A model generated the notes under the pieces. That model had not been told where the DNA came from and did no database searches. It saw only the letters and a program-made list of their open reading frames with translations. The translations under genes were made by a program, and so were the position numbers. A DNA stretch of 42,413 nt from a virus, in the IMG/VR virus record IMGVR_UViG_3300035698_009651, positions 1-42,413 of that record. One strand, written 5' to 3'. This document shows positions 5,954 through 15,399 of the stretch, piece by piece (the first letter of the stretch is position 1; each line of letters begins with the position of its first letter).

Positions 5954-6526
5954 CTAGATGCAGGCGGCGGCTTCGGTCCATGCCTGGGCGGCGCGGCGCT
6001 TGTCCCATCCCCATTGCTTGTGGATGTATTGCTTCAGTGCCCGTCTGGCGCGGGCGGGGCACGCCGCTCGAATGTCATCGGCCAGTTCTGCGGGTGCTAC
6101 CAGGATGGTGTTGATGAGGAGCTGTGCGTCGTCGCTCAGCTCTGCACAGAGGTGCGAGAGGATGGACATCCGCGACGCCCGGGCCGGGATATCGAACGAT
6201 GCGTCCTCGGCGTCCATCGACGAGAAGAAGACATGCCGCGGCCGTCTGCGAGTGCGCCTGTCGAGACGGCCGCGAGTGCAGTAGTTGAGCAGCTGCCAGT
6301 ACAGTTTCTGGTACAGCCAATGCACCTCGCCCGACCGGCCCGTGTCGCAGACCCACTCGTCGCAGAGCAGGGCGCCAAGGACGGATAAGGCCTCCCCAAC
6401 TACCTCCTCCACATCGACATCGTGCTTTGTGGCGAGGTTGACTCCGATGCGCTTCGCCATCGATTTGTACTTGTGGAACCGCCCGGCCTGCTGTTCGGGA
6501 GATAGGTTACGAATCCATTTGCTCAT
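5954..6526 (-). CDS. Sigma-70-like factor
   Basis: A 190-residue protein resembling the short sigma-70-like proteins found in phage early operons. Residues 36-85 contain an acidic helix (DVDVEEVVGEALSVLGALL) and an aromatic-rich helix (HWLYQKLYWQLLNYCTR), the pattern of sigma region 2. After a basic stretch (RRTRRRPR), the C-terminal part has LSDDAQLLIN and a final segment GWDKRRAAQAWTEAA that fits a region-4-like helix-turn-helix. The reading is by pattern, so family membership is probable rather than certain. It is the first gene of the replication operon, with an AAGGGA ribosome site, and could redirect host RNA polymerase to later phage promoters. Confidence 0.55.
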   Translation of the reverse strand: MSKWIRNLSPEQQAGRFHKYKSMAKRIGVNLATKHDVDVEEVVGEALSVLGALLCDEWVCDTGRSGEVHWLYQKLYWQLLNYCTRGRLDRRTRRRPRHVFFSSMDAEDASFDIPARASRMSILSHLCAELSDDAQLLINTILVAPAELADDIRAACPARARRALKQYIHKQWGWDKRRAAQAWTEAAACI

Positions 6527-6596: not shown

Positions 6597-6673
6597 CCGC
6601 CGTCTCCTGCCGCTTGCGAGAAATACTCCGGCAGCGTCGTCTTCATGAACTGCTCGTTTTTCATGTGATTCAT
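6593..6673 (-). CDS. 26-codon open frame, probable duplicated or severed C-terminus
   Basis: A 26-codon frame beginning MNHMKNEQFMKTTLPEYF. The first eight residues repeat exactly the last eight of the VWA-peptidase protein upstream, because a 27-bp stretch is duplicated. No ribosome site other than sequence within the duplication is evident. It could be a remnant of a longer C-terminus of the VWA protein that was cut off by the duplication, or a genuine small peptide. I favour the remnant. Confidence 0.35.
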   Translation of the reverse strand: MNHMKNEQFMKTTLPEYFSQAAGDGG

Positions 6674-6715
6674 GTCCCTGGTCAGATTACTGCTCGTTTT
6701 TCATGTGATTCATGT
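6649..6715. repeat. 27-bp direct repeat with 40-bp period
   Basis: Bases 6649-6675 and 6689-6715 are identical over 27 bp (beginning ACTGCTCGTTTTTCATG) with 13 bp between them. The right copy encodes the last residues and stop-adjacent codons of the VWA-peptidase gene; the left copy begins the 26-codon frame. The 40-bp offset is not a multiple of three, so a duplication here would shift the frame. Confidence 0.85.
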
Positions 6716-7928
6716 TGATCGCGCCGTTGATCGTCACCCTGGTTCCCCAAGGCGGGGCGGTGCTGCTTTTCGGTGCTACCCAAAGCACGGGGTAGTCCGG
6801 CTCCGTGGTCGGGAAGCGGCCCGCCAGGTCGGTGAGGTAGATGAGGCATGCGGGTGTCAGGCTCTGCTCCTCAACCCAGTCGAATGCCGGGCGGAAGTCA
6901 GTGCCTCCCCCGCCGGCGGGGTTGGGGGTGATCGGCAGGTCCGCTCGGGTGTATGTCTCTGCTCCCTGGACCCGGGCGTCGACGTAAATCAAATGGATCG
7001 TCGTCTCGAATGCCCCCAGCACCGCTGATGCCTCGGCCGCGAACAGTGCCAGCGCCTTCGTGTCGATGCTGCCTGATGTATCGATGGCGATGACGATCTC
7101 CGGTAGCTCGTCGGAGATCAGCGACGGGAGCATGATGCCTCGCGAGGCGTGCCGCCGGTTGAACCGGCTCCAGTCGTAGTCGTTCCTCGCGGTGCGGAGG
7201 ACGAAGTCCCGCAGGACGGCGTCCCAGGGTATGGGCGGGTTCGTCACCCGCTCGATCTCACGTGCTAGCGATGCTGGGAGGTTGCCGCGGCCAGCCGCTT
7301 GGGCCGCTTGGGCAACGGCGACCCGCCAGTCGGCCTCTGTCCTCGTTGGCTCGGCTGGTGCGTCCGTAACGGCCCCACACCGCCCCGGGTCGACGAGGTT
7401 GCCCTGTGTGCCGTCCTGGGCGCTGTCTGGGCCGGATGTACCGCCCTGCTGCTGATCGTTGCCCTGTGGGCCACCAGCGCCGCCCTCGGTATCGCCTTCC
7501 CCGCCGCCCTCGTCGTTCTTGGGCCGCTCCGGGAGCTGGGCGTAGATGGCCTCGGCCGCCTTGCCGTTGAACCGGGCATCGAGGAGTGCCCCGGCGGGCA
7601 GGGTCATCCCGGCGTCCCGCAGGATGGCGTTGATGGCGTAGTCCGCAGCGACGTTCCATTGGTCGTGGTCCCGCCTGCCTCGCCGCCAGGTGTGGCCCGC
7701 CGCGATGTGCATGACCTCGTGGGCCAGGACGCCTTGAAGCTCCGGGTCCGTCAGCCCGTCGAAGAAGATGGGGTTGTATCTGATGGCTTCGCCGTTGGTG
7801 GAGGCCGTCTCCACGCGCTCGTCGGCCTCCACCGGCAGGCGGGCCAGCAGCGCCCCGAAAAAGGGGTGGTCGATGATGACGAGGGTCCTGGCCCGCTGCA
7901 GTCGTTGGTCGAGTGCGAGAGCGTGCAT
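6687..7928 (-). CDS. VWA-domain protein with N-terminal HExxH peptidase-like domain (DUF2201 type)
   Basis: A 413-residue protein in two parts. The N-terminal domain carries HEVMH (70-74) followed by IAAGH, a zincin-like metal site. Residues 135-190 are a Gly/Gln/Asp-rich linker. The C-terminal domain has the MIDAS metal site of von Willebrand A domains, DTSGS (283-287) with GGGTDF (341-345). This combination matches the DUF2201 putative metallopeptidase/VWA proteins and recalls CobT. It overlaps the DUF3150-like gene by one base and lies downstream of a MoxR ATPase, the usual AAA+ partner of such VWA proteins. Together they probably form a chaperone or metal-insertion machine; the substrate is unknown. 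The C-terminus may have been shortened by a small duplication. Confidence 0.8.
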   Translation of the reverse strand: MHALALDQRLQRARTLVIIDHPFFGALLARLPVEADERVETASTNGEAIRYNPIFFDGLTDPELQGVLAHEVMHIAAGHTWRRGRRDHDQWNVAADYAINAILRDAGMTLPAGALLDARFNGKAAEAIYAQLPERPKNDEGGGEGDTEGGAGGPQGNDQQQGGTSGPDSAQDGTQGNLVDPGRCGAVTDAPAEPTRTEADWRVAVAQAAQAAGRGNLPASLAREIERVTNPPIPWDAVLRDFVLRTARNDYDWSRFNRRHASRGIMLPSLISDELPEIVIAIDTSGSIDTKALALFAAEASAVLGAFETTIHLIYVDARVQGAETYTRADLPITPNPAGGGGTDFRPAFDWVEEQSLTPACLIYLTDLAGRFPTTEPDYPVLWVAPKSSTAPPWGTRVTINGAINMNHMKNEQ

Positions 7929-8803
7929 TACTTCTTCTCCATGTATGTGGTCATCTTGTCGAGGATGCCCTTGGCCGCCTTGGCGGCGGCCGAGCGGGCC
8001 CGCTCGTCTGTGCGGATGCTGTCTGCGTCCAAGGCCCCGAGCTTCTTGGATACCTGCTTGGTCATCTTTGCGAGCTGCGGGTCGTTGAGGACGTTGAGGC
8101 GGGGTAGCAGGTCGCAGAGGTCTTGGATGTTGCTGACGAGGGAGTTGCGGATCACCCGGTCGGTGTCTGATACCCGGTCGGCCAGCTTGTTGACGGACTC
8201 GTAGAGGCGGCCCCAGAGGTCGTGGGTCGCGGCGTTGAGCTTCTCGCTCATACGCCCCTCGATCTCCTGGCGGATGTCATCGCCGGCCTGCCCCGCCAAG
8301 GTGACCCGGAAGTCGGTGGATACCGGCAGCGGCGAGATGTCGATGTGCCAGGCGAAGCGGCGGGCCATCGTGCTCGCGGCCGGGTACCAGTCCGTGTGGA
8401 ACAGCTCACCGAGCCGGTCCTGCGCCATCGTCAGCATGCTGGGGTAGTCGGCGACGAAGGCGTCGGACGCCTCGCGGAACGCGGCCTCGGCCTGCCGCAT
8501 CTTGGTGGTGTACTCGAGGAAGTTCGCGGCGGGCAGAATTCTGAAGCCGACGTCGTTCCACGGCAGCGTCTGCTTGTCGTGGATGATGCGTCCTCGTACC
8601 TCGGCGTTGCGGATGGGTGCGAGGGACTTGCGGCTGACCAGGTGCGTCCACCATGATCCCGCGTCCTGCTCGGCGTGCTTGCGTGCGGTAATGTCGTCGC
8701 CGATGGCGGTGTCCCGCTTGCGGCCGTCCCAGCGGGAGACGGTGAGTTTGGCGAGCATCGCCCGTTCGTGTAGGTCGCCTGTGTTGGTCTTGCGCTTTGT
8801 CAT
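7928..8803 (-). CDS. DUF3150-like protein of the MoxR/VWA set
   Basis: A 291-residue soluble protein, mostly helical by eye, with no catalytic motif I can name. An early LTVSRWDGRKRD segment and its position between a MoxR ATPase and a VWA protein resemble the DUF3150 proteins found with CobS/CobT-like pairs on mobile elements. That assignment is from memory and position. I placed the start at 8803, after GAAGGAG with good spacing; upstream codons in frame fall in the promoter leader. One of the three repeated early promoter modules lies 50 bases upstream, so this gene and the VWA gene can be expressed without the MoxR gene. Role unknown, perhaps an adaptor. Confidence 0.6.
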   Translation of the reverse strand: MTKRKTNTGDLHERAMLAKLTVSRWDGRKRDTAIGDDITARKHAEQDAGSWWTHLVSRKSLAPIRNAEVRGRIIHDKQTLPWNDVGFRILPAANFLEYTTKMRQAEAAFREASDAFVADYPSMLTMAQDRLGELFHTDWYPAASTMARRFAWHIDISPLPVSTDFRVTLAGQAGDDIRQEIEGRMSEKLNAATHDLWGRLYESVNKLADRVSDTDRVIRNSLVSNIQDLCDLLPRLNVLNDPQLAKMTKQVSKKLGALDADSIRTDERARSAAAKAAKGILDKMTTYMEKK

Positions 8804-8849
8804 TGCCGTGCTCCTTCTGGTTGGTGCGTCGTCGGGTAGTCCGTTCAAC

Positions 8850-8917
8850 GTATAGAAGTATACCTTCCTGTCATCGGACCCGTCAAGCGGGAATCTTAAG
8901 GGAATTTGATGAATCTT
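8850..8917 (-). promoter_or_regulatory. Early promoter/operator module, copy 1
   Basis: Reading leftward: -35 TTGACG (8881-8886), 18-base spacer, -10 TATACT (8857-8862). The -10 lies inside an inverted repeat GTATA-CTTC-TATAC (8850-8863) that looks like a repressor site. Eight bases upstream of the -35 is a conserved block ending in CCCTTAAG (8895-8917). The same layout occurs at 10597 and 14407. It drives the DUF3150-like and VWA genes. Confidence 0.8.
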
Positions 8918-8941
8918 TCCCTCGGCCCGGGCCGCCCCGTG

Positions 8942-9931
8942 CTAGACGAGCAGCTCTTGGTGGTCCGATGCCCACTGGATGAACTCGGACGAGTTCGCGG
9001 CCCCGGGGCAGTGGCGCATGGCATCGCGGATGGTGAGTACGGTGAACTCCCCCGGCATCCTCGTGGCGTACTGCATGACCTGCCTGGCGTTCTTGGGCGT
9101 GGTCCGGGATGCCAGCGCCGATGAGATGGCATAGAGGGCGGCCGGTTCGTTTGGGACCGGCGTCTCGCTTGGGTTCGTCAGGATGTCGTCGATGGCTGGC
9201 AGCGCGTCGCAGACACGGATGAACCCGAGGAATTCCGAGGCAAACCCCTCCCCAGCAGCACCGGCGAGTGCCTCCTGGTCTCGGATGCCAGCGGCGTAGA
9301 GCCATGCCAGGTTGGTGACGGTGCGCGGGCACGGGCGGTTGACGATGTCTGCCGTTGGATTGCCGTCAGCCATGAGCATCTCCGGCCGGAAGCGGACGAA
9401 TGCGATCACCTCGGGTGCGATGTCGTGCGTCAGCGCCCAGGCACACCATTGGTCGACGTCGGCCTCCAGTTCCACGATGGTAACGAACCGGCTCTTGACC
9501 GGCTCGAGGATGCTGGTGACGCCAGCGCGATCCTGCCTGCGGTTGGTGGCTGCGATGAATGTGACGTGCTCGCTGACCTCGTGCTCGCCGATGCGGCGGG
9601 CCAGGATCAGCTGCATGGCAGCGGCCTGCACGCAGGCGGGTGCCTGGCCGAGGTCGTCGAGGAAGACCACCGTCGGCTTGTCGGCGACGATCATTCGCTG
9701 CAGGTCGCCGAACGGCAGCCACTTGGCCTTGCCAGCCACGACGGCGGGCATGCCCTTGTAGTTGGTCGGGTCCTCGATGACGGGGTGCGATACGAGCATG
9801 GTGTATCCCAAGTCGTCGACGACCTGGTAGGGGATGTCCGTCTTGCCAATGCCTGGGGCTCCTTTGATCAGCAGGGGCTTCCGTCCCTCGATCATCACTC
9901 GGAGCAGCGTTGCCAGGTTGCTTGCCTTCAT
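8942..9931 (-). CDS. MoxR-family AAA+ ATPase
   Basis: A 329-residue AAA+ ATPase. Walker A is GAPGIGKT (24-31), Walker B TVVFLDDL (87-94), sensor 1 AATN (127-130), and an EPVKSRF arginine-finger-type segment follows at 143-149. The layout and the LLIKGAPGIGKT start resemble MoxR/CobS proteins, which form rings that remodel partners through VWA-domain proteins. It is followed by a promoter module and then the DUF3150-like and VWA-peptidase genes, a classic MoxR/VWA neighbourhood. I chose the ATG at 9931, after AGGAGA; upstream sequence in this frame lies in the preceding gene. Its ATG overlaps the previous stop (ATGA). Cellular target unknown. Confidence 0.85.
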   Translation of the reverse strand: MKASNLATLLRVMIEGRKPLLIKGAPGIGKTDIPYQVVDDLGYTMLVSHPVIEDPTNYKGMPAVVAGKAKWLPFGDLQRMIVADKPTVVFLDDLGQAPACVQAAAMQLILARRIGEHEVSEHVTFIAATNRRQDRAGVTSILEPVKSRFVTIVELEADVDQWCAWALTHDIAPEVIAFVRFRPEMLMADGNPTADIVNRPCPRTVTNLAWLYAAGIRDQEALAGAAGEGFASEFLGFIRVCDALPAIDDILTNPSETPVPNEPAALYAISSALASRTTPKNARQVMQYATRMPGEFTVLTIRDAMRHCPGAANSSEFIQWASDHQELLV

Positions 9932-10191
9932 GATCGTGTCTCCTCTGGTTGGTGTTGGTCGGCCTGGCTGCTGCGGACGATGGTCAGCTGGAACTCGTCG
10001 CCCTCGTCCGTCTCGATGACCAGCCCGGCGTCGGTGGTCATGACGCCAGCCTCGTCGAAGGTCCGGGCGTGGCGCACGGTGGTCAGCGTGTTCGTGCTGT
10101 CCATCCCGGCGTGCTCGAGGTCGGCGGGGTCGGAGTAGGACATTTCTTCGAGCAGCGTCTTGAGCATGTCTTGTATTTCGTTCGCGGTCAT
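9928..10191 (-). CDS. Small acidic protein, unknown
   Basis: An 87-residue acidic protein (many Asp and Glu, few Lys) that I do not recognise. The second half could form beta strands ending in QLTIVRSSQ. Start at 10191 follows AAGAAGGAGCACGACG, the leader shared with other small early genes. Its stop overlaps the MoxR start by four bases (ATGA), so it is translated together with the ATPase and may be a partner or regulator of it. Confidence 0.7.
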   Translation of the reverse strand: MTANEIQDMLKTLLEEMSYSDPADLEHAGMDSTNTLTTVRHARTFDEAGVMTTDAGLVIETDEGDEFQLTIVRSSQADQHQPEETRS

Positions 10192-10267: not shown

Positions 10268-10552
10268 TCAGCTGTTGGTGCCGTTGGCCTTCATGATCGC
10301 GTGGAAGAGTCGCGTGGGGATGTCGTCGCGGACGCAGGTGTCCAGGTCGTAGGCCAAGCGCCCGGCCTCAGCCAGGTCGCCCCGGGCAACAGCGTCGCGG
10401 ACCGCCAGGAGGTCTTTGACGTCGGCGTCGTAGGTGGCTGCCATCTCTTTGTCGTTGTTGCGGTGGGCGGTTGCCGCCCGGCGGTTGCGGTGAATTACGC
10501 GGTCGAGGCGTTCGAGGTCTCTGGTCCGTTCGTTGGTCTGCGTTGCGTTCAT
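10268..10552 (-). CDS. Small helical protein, unknown
   Basis: A 94-residue protein rich in Arg, Asp and Ala, probably all helical (RTRDLERLDRVIHRNRRAAT then a second long helix). I do not recognise it. It starts at 10552 after GAAGGAGCACGACG and is the first gene behind early promoter module 2, so it is likely expressed early. A stem-loop follows its stop. Confidence 0.7.
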   Translation of the reverse strand: MNATQTNERTRDLERLDRVIHRNRRAATAHRNNDKEMAATYDADVKDLLAVRDAVARGDLAEAGRLAYDLDTCVRDDIPTRLFHAIMKANGTNS

Positions 10553-10596: not shown

Positions 10597-10663
10597 GTAT
10601 AGAAGTATACCTCCCTATCATCGGACCGACAAGCCTAATTCTTAAGGGAATTTGATTAATCTT
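10597..10663 (-). promoter_or_regulatory. Early promoter/operator module, copy 2
   Basis: Reading leftward: -35 TTGTCG (10627-10632), 17-base spacer, -10 TATACT (10604-10609) inside the inverted repeat GTATA-CTTC-TATAC (10597-10610). The conserved upstream block containing CCCTTAAG is at 10641-10663, again eight bases before the -35. A 10-bp repeat array lies 58 bases further upstream. It drives the gene at 10552 and probably the MoxR gene. Confidence 0.8.
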
Positions 10664-10720
10664 TTGGCCGCCCCGGGGCCGCCCCGGTGCCCACCTGGGC
10701 CGCACTGGGTAGCGTATGGC

Positions 10721-10790
10721 CGATGTCCGCCGATGTCCGCCGATGTCCGCCGATGTCTGGCGATGTCTGGCGATGTCCGCCGATGTCTGG
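10721..10790. repeat. Seven-unit 10-bp tandem repeat array
   Basis: Seven exact 10-bp units in a row: CGATGTCCGC three times, CGATGTCTGG twice, then one of each. The common part is CGATGTC. A 10-bp period puts every unit on nearly the same face of the helix. The array lies in a 307-base gap without a credible gene, upstream of promoter module 2; open frames through it are low-complexity products of the repeat. It may be a set of regulator sites or origin iterons. Confidence 0.85.
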
Positions 10791-10913
10791 CGGGGTGCGC
10801 CGAGGTGCGCCCACCCGTGCCACCCCGCCCGGCGTACGGGCAAACGTACCACCGCCTGGCGGATCGTCGCCCTGTGGCCAACCAGTGGAATCCTTGGCGG
10901 GCCACACGAGAGA

Positions 10914-10969: not shown

Positions 10970-11629
10970 CTACGCCGCAAACGCCTTCTTGATGGCGGGC
11001 AGCAGCTCCCGGCCCGCGTCGGTGATCTGCCAGAGGCCACGACCGGCCTTCTCGACGCGGCCGCGCTTGTCGCTCAGCATCGCGCTGTACAGCGTGGCCT
11101 CGGGCGTCTTGCCCTCGCCGCGCTCGTAGAGGCCGCCGGCCTCGGCCTTCTCGATGATGGCCTGGGCGTTCATCGGCTTCTTGGACCCGCCGAGGACCAG
11201 GATTGCGGCGTTCATCAGCGACTTGCGGGGACCGGCAGGCGTGCGGTCGGCCGTCTCGGCCTTCGGCTCGTCGTCCGTTGAGCTGGCTTTCTTGGCGGTC
11301 GCCTTCTTGGCCTTCGGCTTGCTGGCCTTCTCGATGGCCTTCTTGTTGGCCTTCTTGGCCTTGTCATTGTTGCTGGCCTTCTTGCCCTTCTTGGCGGGTG
11401 CCTCCTCGGCCTGCTCGTCTGCTGCGGTCGCTTCCGCATGGACCGGCTTCAGGTCCTCGGGCTTGACCAGCGCCACCGCGTCTGAGCCTACGACTGAGAC
11501 CCGGCACTTCCCTGGGTGCCGCTTGCTGTCGCCCATCGCTGTGACCTGGACCACTTCGCCGTCCAGCCCCGTCTCGTAAGTATGGCCGACCTTGATGCCG
11601 GTCTCCTTTGATGTGTTTCGCTTCGCCAT
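10970..11629 (-). CDS. Lys/Ala-rich protein with C-terminal HARE-HTH-like winged helix
   Basis: A 219-residue protein. Residues 1-65 may form a small beta domain (GIKVGHTYETGLDGEVVQVT). Residues 75-135 are a Lys/Ala/Pro-rich tail-like stretch as in histone H1-like proteins. Residues 140-219 look like a HARE-HTH winged helix (AAILVLGGSKKPMNAQAIIE, then GKTPEATLYSAM), a domain found in RNA polymerase delta and in some nuclease-linked proteins. It probably binds DNA. The start at 11629 follows AAGGAGATTCAC; an in-frame ATG at 11695 overlaps the previous stop as ATGA and would add 22 residues. A strong stem-loop follows. Confidence 0.7.
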   Translation of the reverse strand: MAKRNTSKETGIKVGHTYETGLDGEVVQVTAMGDSKRHPGKCRVSVVGSDAVALVKPEDLKPVHAEATAADEQAEEAPAKKGKKASNNDKAKKANKKAIEKASKPKAKKATAKKASSTDDEPKAETADRTPAGPRKSLMNAAILVLGGSKKPMNAQAIIEKAEAGGLYERGEGKTPEATLYSAMLSDKRGRVEKAGRGLWQITDAGRELLPAIKKAFAA

Positions 11630-11691
11630 GTGAATCTCCTTCTCGTTCGGGTGTGGTGGTATGAGGCCCTGCGCCTCGTAATGGACTGTTG

Positions 11692-12129
11692 TCATGTATC
11701 GCTCTGTTCAGCGGAGGAATCCAGTGCAAATTTACTTGGCCCCACCTTTTTGAAGGCGGGGTGCTTGAAGATGGATGCATATACGGTTCGGTCGGGCGTG
11801 GCTCCCCCAGGGGACCAGAGCCCCTCGTCGATCATCATCTGCGTCAGCTCCTTGGTGGCCATCGGCTTCCCCGCCATGCGCAGCGCCTCGATGGCCGCCT
11901 CGATGACGTTCTTGCCGCGGCCTGCTTGGCGGGCCTCCTTGGCGACCTCCTTCTCGTGCTCCTTGGACTCCTTGGCGCTCTTCGGTCCCGCGACCCGGTC
12001 TGCGACACACGCCGAGCAGGCGGTGGCCTTGACCCCGCGAGGGGCGGCCTTGACGGGGTGCCCGCAGACGGAGCACTGCCTGCCGTTCGGGTTGTCGTGC
12101 ATCGCCTGCTTGATTGATGGCCCTGTCAT
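11692..12129 (-). CDS. Zinc-ribbon protein with HARE-HTH-like domain
   Basis: A 145-residue protein. The N-terminus has a four-cysteine site, CSVC (19-22) and CSAC (38-41), likely binding zinc. A charged helical linker follows, then a C-terminal winged-helix-like segment (VIEAAIEALRMAGKPMATKE, TVYASIFKHPAF) that parallels the C-terminal domain of the next gene, so the two adjacent proteins share a domain. A TAAGGAG ribosome site begins in the stop codon of the gene before. It is a probable DNA-binding regulator or nucleoid-type protein; no target is known. Confidence 0.7.
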   Translation of the reverse strand: MTGPSIKQAMHDNPNGRQCSVCGHPVKAAPRGVKATACSACVADRVAGPKSAKESKEHEKEVAKEARQAGRGKNVIEAAIEALRMAGKPMATKELTQMMIDEGLWSPGGATPDRTVYASIFKHPAFKKVGPSKFALDSSAEQSDT

Positions 12130-14361: not shown

Positions 14362-14406
14362 CGTCGTGCTCCTTCTTCGGTTGGTGCGTCGTTCGTTCCA
14401 GTCAAC

Positions 14407-14473
14407 GTATAGAAGTATACCTACTATCATCGGATCATCCAACCAAATACCTAAGGGAATCGAAGATAATCTT
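14407..14473 (-). promoter_or_regulatory. Early promoter/operator module, copy 3
   Basis: Reading leftward: -35 TTGGAT (14437-14442), 17-base spacer, -10 TATACT (14414-14419) within GTATA-CTTC-TATAC (14407-14420). The upstream block with CCCTTAG is at 14451-14473, eight bases before the -35 as in the other copies. It includes CGAAGAT-A-ATCTTCG (14461-14475). It is the main leftward early promoter at the divergence point of the genome. Confidence 0.8.
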
Positions 14474-15166: not shown

Positions 15167-15399
15167 TGGCGCTACTAGGCATAACGCTGATGAAGTTGCT
15201 GCATGATGCAGGACTCATCACGAACACCACGAGCCGTGTCATCATCGACGCTCAGTTGAACGGGGCTGTCCACATCTATATTGACACCTACCCCGAGTTC
15301 GGTCCCGGCGTTCTCAACGCGATGGTGGAGCAGCTGAATGGCGCTGAGGTTATACAACAGGAACAGGATGATACGGCAAGCGAAGCCGACAGTCAGTAG
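15166..15399 (+). CDS. Small protein between terminase genes, unknown
   Basis: A 77-residue protein with a likely beta-alpha fold (SRVIIDAQLNGAVHIYIDTY) and an acidic Gln/Glu-rich tail. It overlaps the small terminase by one base and the large terminase by about 32 bases, so it is embedded in the packaging operon. I do not recognise it. Confidence 0.65.
   Translation: MALLGITLMKLLHDAGLITNTTSRVIIDAQLNGAVHIYIDTYPEFGPGVLNAMVEQLNGAEVIQQEQDDTASEADSQ

Follow-up and report, generated by a model that had tools for sequence, protein, structure and literature searches.

A three-gene MoxR ATPase, DUF3150-like and metallopeptidase-VWA module shared by phages and plasmids, a possible early remodelling machine

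What would a phage do with a MoxR-class ATPase, a helical DUF3150-like protein and a protein that joins a metallopeptidase-like site to a VWA domain? This question is raised by the virus record IMGVR_UViG_3300035698_009651 of IMG/VR (42,413 bases, analysed over its whole length and here called the window), in which three open reading frames (ORFs), A (the ATPase), M and V, follow one another in this order on the minus strand. A preliminary description of this DNA had listed the same three genes in this order and place, and our analysis recovered them. We put at about even the chance that they specify one three-gene unit, an early AAA+/VWA remodelling machine whose target is common to phages and conjugative plasmids and is not the virion. 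The genes and their diagnostic motifs, including the metal-ion-dependent adhesion site (MIDAS), are as follows.

8942..9931, minus strand: A, MoxR-class AAA+ ATPase of the N4 gp24 family, 329 amino acids
7928..8803, minus strand: M, DUF3150-like helical protein, 291 amino acids
6687..7928, minus strand: V, DUF2201 protein of the N4 gp25 family with an N-terminal metallopeptidase-like domain and a C-terminal VWA domain, 413 amino acids
9839..9862, minus strand: Walker A of A, GAPGIGKT, residues 24-31
9647..9670, minus strand: Walker B of A, VVFLDDLG, residues 88-95
7707..7721, minus strand: HEVMH metal site of V, residues 70-74
7068..7082, minus strand: MIDAS motif DTSGS of V, residues 283-287; the other MIDAS residues are T343 and D367

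We compared V with protein families and found matches to DUF2201_N (PF13203; E = 2.4e-51, 175 bits, cut-off 23.2), DUF2201 (PF09967; E = 3.4e-30, 105 bits, cut-off 26.4) and PHROG_1314 (E = 1.2e-97). Because HEVMH and the series DTSGS...T343...D367 fall inside the DUF2201_N and DUF2201 domains, they are not chance strings, and the combination of an HExxH motif and a MIDAS in one protein, as first described, is confirmed by these matches. Residue conservation was scored over 207 V proteins. The MIDAS residues D283, S285 and S287 were present in all 207, T343 in 206 (Ser in the remaining one) and D367 in all 205 proteins aligned at that position. In the metal site, the His pair was kept in 205/207, H79 in 204/207 and D96 in 206/207; the catalytic Glu was found in 198/207, and seven proteins kept both His residues without it. 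Parsimony on a tree of 118 V proteins, a quick tree with some long branches, indicated that the catalytic Glu changed at least five times. Since the Glu has five or more losses and the MIDAS none, proteolysis is not a universal core function. The conservation pattern thus suggests that the MIDAS is the essential element of V, with proteolysis possible in most members and dispensable in some. Proteolysis had been raised in the preliminary description; the motif behind it is real and its Glu is kept in most relatives, but as a core activity it is weakened by these losses.

The predicted structure of V had a mean pLDDT (predicted local distance difference test) of 85.6, with a low-confidence linker at residues ~140-180. 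Its VWA part matched VWA and integrin I domains in a fold search, and its N-terminal domain gave no convincing match in the PDB by fold search and weak generic matches by profile search. A SprT/Spartan-type protease identity was rejected, its one match being sub-threshold (E = 0.0019). Five Desulfobacterota loci (L014, L019, L021, L025 and L078) encode V with HLVMH or HTVMH, in which both metal His residues are kept and the Glu is lost; in the same loci A adjoins V, and M was not found. The full V ORFs of L192 and L193 carry HESEH and retain the N-terminal domain. DUF2201 metallopeptidase-VWA proteins in PHROG_1314 and in RefSeq phage records (e.g. H3, H5 and H22) are labelled 'HNH endonuclease' or 'homing endonuclease'. 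The Pfam scan of window V returned DUF2201_N, DUF2201 and weak SprT/M48 matches and no HNH domain. Because the window member lacks this domain, the 'HNH endonuclease' label on PHROG_1314-type proteins is probably a propagated wrong name, and a widespread one.

A matched PHROG_1297 (E = 1.4e-66) and, just above the cut-off, the Pfam families AAA/AAA_5. In a profile search of the PDB, its best relative was midasin (E = 2.6e-35), followed by NorQ/CbbQ (~1e-6), with other AAA+ proteins also matching. Midasin and NorQ/CbbQ are AAA+ proteins with VWA/MIDAS-bearing partners. Among 194 relatives of A, the Walker A K30 was kept in 188 (five of the remaining six are gapped there) and the Walker B D92 in 187, with E in the rest; position 93 was E in 143 and D in 51. 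Sensor-1 N130 and the Arg finger R148 were kept in 194/194, and sensor-2 R203 in 193/194. With all motifs present and near-invariant and its nearest relatives in the MoxR/midasin/CbbQ branch, A is by sequence a MoxR-class AAA+ protein, in agreement with the initial assignment.

M gave no direct match in Pfam, PF11348 (DUF3150) included. PF11348 was matched by 22 of 50 M relatives (best E = 3.5e-8). AlphaFold2 predicted a helical protein (mean pLDDT 95.1, predicted template modelling score 0.89), and this fold aligned with that of a phage protein annotated as DUF3150 at a template modelling score (TM) of 0.87. In an hhalign comparison with the DUF3150 protein of plasmid pCAR1, the probability was 82% over the N-terminal part. 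A fold search of the PDB with M returned nothing significant, and a profile search of solved structures gave weak generic matches. These results suggest that M belongs with DUF3150 remotely, through its relatives and its predicted fold; the DUF3150-like naming of the preliminary description holds by that route and not by a direct Pfam match.

We analysed the linkage of the three genes using profile scans of genomes and viral contigs, built from alignments of closer relatives, which gave 205 loci. Scans of viral contigs with a single M or V protein returned no matches, and a six-sequence M alignment was too divergent for scanning. Among V loci flanked on each side by 9 kb or more (full-flank loci), A was present in 51/51 (35/35 genomic and 16/16 viral) and M in 35/51 (24 genomic and 11 viral), and 15 of 16 full-flank M loci contained both A and V. 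A further profile search for hidden M genes in loci with only A and V found none. The distances between A, M and V proteins correlated over 112 loci (r 0.76-0.86), to which common inheritance contributes. The A-V pair is therefore a conserved genetic linkage, as expected of a MoxR-VWA chaperone pair; neither outcome named at the outset as refuting was seen, the association being strong and the MIDAS essentially invariant.

In annotated phages, V matched 526 records and A 635, among them N4-like phages, jumbo phages, phage G and Thermus phage phiFa, and M matched three cyanophage records of identical sequence. In the one cyanophage record that we examined, A, M and V come in that order, separated by small genes. 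On plasmids, many of them from Burkholderiales, M matched 44 records and V 82. The nearest homologues of window V and A in annotated records are on plasmids, several of them conjugative, at 36-46% identity. The module also occurs on chromosomal contigs and on ~80 viral contigs, in the three gene orders AMV, MAV and AVM. In the V tree, plasmid, genome and virus sequences interleave, and the nearest to window V is that of the viral locus L091. Nine loci (L008, L009 and the genome loci L017, L031, L049, L055, L057, L059 and L074) have members of a ThiF-family cluster within ~8 kb of the module; the ThiF genes of L008 are annotated PRTRC. A ubiquitin-like ThiF cassette recurs in this neighbourhood. 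In the Acidobacteria loci L017, L018, L023, L032, L033, L035, L037, L045 and L063, the module lies near members of one gene cluster, and the member that was scanned, from L018, matches Siphovirus Gp157. This suggests that these chromosomal copies are in prophages or other mobile elements.

The preliminary description had called the function of such genes in phages largely undefined, which needs qualifying, because several relatives are known. N4 gp24 and gp25 (PHROG_1297 and PHROG_1314), listed as core genes of N4-like phages (PMC4193335), are this same pair of ATPase and metallopeptidase-VWA protein, encoded side by side or close together, but are 25-30% identical to the window proteins, and in N4-like phage G7C no DUF3150 gene is annotated between them. 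A jumbo-phage MoxR-vWA/metallopeptidase chaperone pair was described in 2021 by Iyer et al.; as given in an excerpt of that paper (PMC7824862), it has the same two-protein architecture with an N-terminal metallopeptidase, whereas a third gene goes unmentioned in the excerpt. The Burkholderiales and Rhodovastum plasmid loci have the order A-M-V, contiguous in L008-L010 and with genes between in L007, and encode V proteins 35-42% identical to that of the window; unlike the window module, they are plasmid-borne, and several lie near PRTRC ThiF genes (L008 and L009 adjoin ThiF-family genes). ORF101-103 of the conjugative plasmid pCAR1 encode MoxR, DUF3150 (Pfam E = 8.3e-92) and VWA proteins in the same order, but this VWA protein is of the CoxE/CobT/NorD type and lacks the DUF2201 metallopeptidase domain; the pCAR1 ORF100-103 genes are reported to be conserved in R478, Rts1, SXT and R391 (PMC2642839). 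The three-gene order sought in other phages and plasmids was thus found in the cyanophage, in L007-L010 and, with a different VWA protein, in pCAR1. ATV p618/p892, RavA-ViaA and midasin likewise combine a MoxR-branch AAA+ protein with a VWA/MIDAS partner or domain. We know of no HExxH domain or DUF3150 partner in these three, and their targets differ, being tail proteins, respiratory complexes and pre-ribosomes. We regard the module as a variant form of MoxR-VWA systems already known. The A-V pair had been described before; new is the extent of the three-gene unit across Burkholderiales plasmids, chromosomal contigs and viral contigs. We did not find the three-gene phage version described as a unit, nor any paper naming DUF3150, in the literature searched.

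These comparisons bear on metal insertion, the role first suggested by analogy with cellular MoxR/VWA pairs, in which a chaperone of the CobST/ChlID/NorQD sort would load metal into a phage or host enzyme. The MoxR class of A and the CbbQ_C and CoxE/CobT-like VWA matches of the pCAR1 relatives are in keeping with it, but V matches DUF2201 and not the CobT or CoxE VWA models, and the identified neighbour clusters include no recurrent chelatase (CobN/ChlH-like) or metalloenzyme partner. The suggestion found no support, and we consider it very improbable.

Next to the module in the window, family searches identified a SNF2 helicase, a primase-like gene and a DnaB-like gene 3' of V on the same strand. 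This early block runs leftward, and the structural block (terminase at 15338+, portal, head and tape measure) runs rightward. Wherever clustered replication genes (polymerase, SNF2 helicase, exonuclease, primases, DnaB-like and VRR-NUC) were scored in viral loci, they lay on the module strand, whereas the ratio of loci with the module strand opposite to those with the same strand was 27:1 for TerL, 14:0 for TerS and 27:0 for structural genes. After removal of near relatives, the strand counts were 31:0 and 14:1. N4 gp24 and gp25 are middle genes (PMC4193335). This arrangement agrees with the early-region location originally proposed and points to a module that acts early or in the replication phase, not in particle building.

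Iyer and colleagues have nevertheless proposed a virion role for precisely this pair of domains, as found in jumbo phages of group 2.2; the excerpt draws it by analogy with ATV p618/p892 (PMC7824862). Under this proposal, the MoxR/VWA pair would fold or assemble tail or head proteins as a chaperone, and the metallopeptidase domain would process structural proteins. The p618/p892 pair of the archaeal virus ATV, studied biochemically, acts in extracellular tail development, and its VWA protein stimulates the ATPase (PMC4124505); in roseophage RPP1, virion proteins map near gp24/gp25 (PMC4193335). Because the module lies on the replication-side strand opposite the virion genes and is shared with plasmids, we doubt the proposal for this subfamily: the closest annotated V and A homologues are on plasmids that make no virions, and the catalytic Glu was repeatedly lost. 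Since strand only proxies expression time and ATV uses such a pair for tails, virion assembly stays a rival, albeit one that we think unlikely.

In the remodelling machine that we favour, A would form a ring, on which the VWA domain of V would dock and grip a partner through the MIDAS metal. M would be a dedicated helical partner or adaptor, and ATP hydrolysis would dismantle or activate the target complex. The zincin-like N-terminal domain of V would bind metal and could, in the majority of members, cleave the protein presented to it, an activity that would be accessory because several lineages lost the catalytic Glu. The target would most likely be an intracellular complex, of DNA metabolism or of the host, that phages and conjugative plasmids both encounter early or while replicating. 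Several points weigh against this reading: the strand of a gene is an indirect measure of when it is expressed; the ATV precedent leaves a virion role possible for relatives; some full-flank loci lack M in the vicinity of A and V; and no M homologue is annotated between gp24 and gp25 of G7C. M is, by the last two points, not universal.

The same early-side location and the sharing between phages and conjugative plasmids would also fit counter-defence or host takeover, in which a defence or regulatory complex of the host would be taken apart or cleaved by the machine soon after DNA entry, a need common to phages and incoming plasmids. The patchy presence of M and the permuted gene order are in line with it. 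A search of the PADLOC defence library gave no match above noise, and gp24/gp25 are core in all N4-like phages compared (PMC4193335), a pattern more typical of housekeeping genes than of a variable counter-defence gene; we regard this explanation as a minority one. The module as a defence system in itself was rejected, as no relevant PADLOC match was found. A bolder version of the remodelling machine, to which we give little credence, is that mobile DNA carries a ternary AAA+/MIDAS/metallopeptidase machine not described before, which would clear or remodel protein complexes on DNA that is replicating or has just entered the cell (e.g. host factors, crosslinks or protein roadblocks). In it, M would serve as the substrate adaptor, with a fold unseen in solved structures.

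The genes gp24/gp25 are core to a whole phage family. That the module, in many loci with M as a third member, is shared with conjugative plasmids and lies on the replication side narrows the search for its target. We expect MIDAS mutants to be dead, catalytic-Glu mutants possibly to live, and phenotypes to be early ones rather than virion ones.

The preliminary description had further noted a repeated early promoter that separates the ATPase from its partners. This element and the small ORFs upstream of A are listed here.

8857..8886, minus strand: sigma-70-like promoter between A and M, TTGACG-18-TATACT, within a three-copy repeat
10604..10632, minus strand: second promoter copy, TTGTCG-17-TATACT, 5' of two small ORFs and the ATPase
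9928..10191, minus strand: small ORF 5' of A, 87 amino acids (ORF calls, family searches)
10268..10552, minus strand: small ORF, 94 amino acids, first ORF after the second promoter (ORF calls, family searches)

The repeat is a 36-nucleotide block present at 8845, 10592 and 14402, with sigma-70-like hexamers on the minus strand at the first two copies (8886-8857 and 10632-10604). Consensus promoter matches alone were near the shuffle expectation (3 found versus 1.3 expected), but the occurrence of the block in three copies is specific. L091, the nearest relative, has a gap of ~22 nucleotides from the ATPase stop to the M start and no promoter there, so the promoter separation of A and M is not conserved. 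The repeated promoter is thus real in the window, but the differing dosage of the parts deduced from it is not general, and we discarded promoter-based dosage as a conserved feature. A near-palindrome, GTATACTTCTATAC, lies at the -10 region of the repeated block and could be an operator. The third copy (14402-14437, minus strand) lies near the boundary with the structural block. Just 5' of the second promoter copy, positions 10711-10800 hold about eight 10-bp tandem units (CGATGTCCGC / CGATGTCTGG), an array that resembles iterons or a binding-site cluster and is possibly an origin or regulatory region.

The ATPase ATG and the stop of the preceding 87-amino-acid ORF overlap by 4 nucleotides, and this ORF is probably co-transcribed with the ATPase; the M stop and V start also overlap (TAATG). 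Neither the 87- nor the 94-amino-acid ORF had a significant family match in Pfam or PHROG searches. At 6649-6715, a 27-bp sequence is repeated perfectly in direct orientation, 40 bp apart, across the V 3' end and the sequence just beyond, which looks like a duplication of the gene end. Just 3' of V, positions 5954-6526 encode a 190-amino-acid protein with no family match, which is kept in the sister phages L091 and L095 and is a tentative candidate for a sigma-like protein. Elsewhere in the early block, 10970-11695 encodes a protein rich in Lys and Ala that carries a HARE-HTH domain (PF05066, E = 3.2e-11) at its C terminus.

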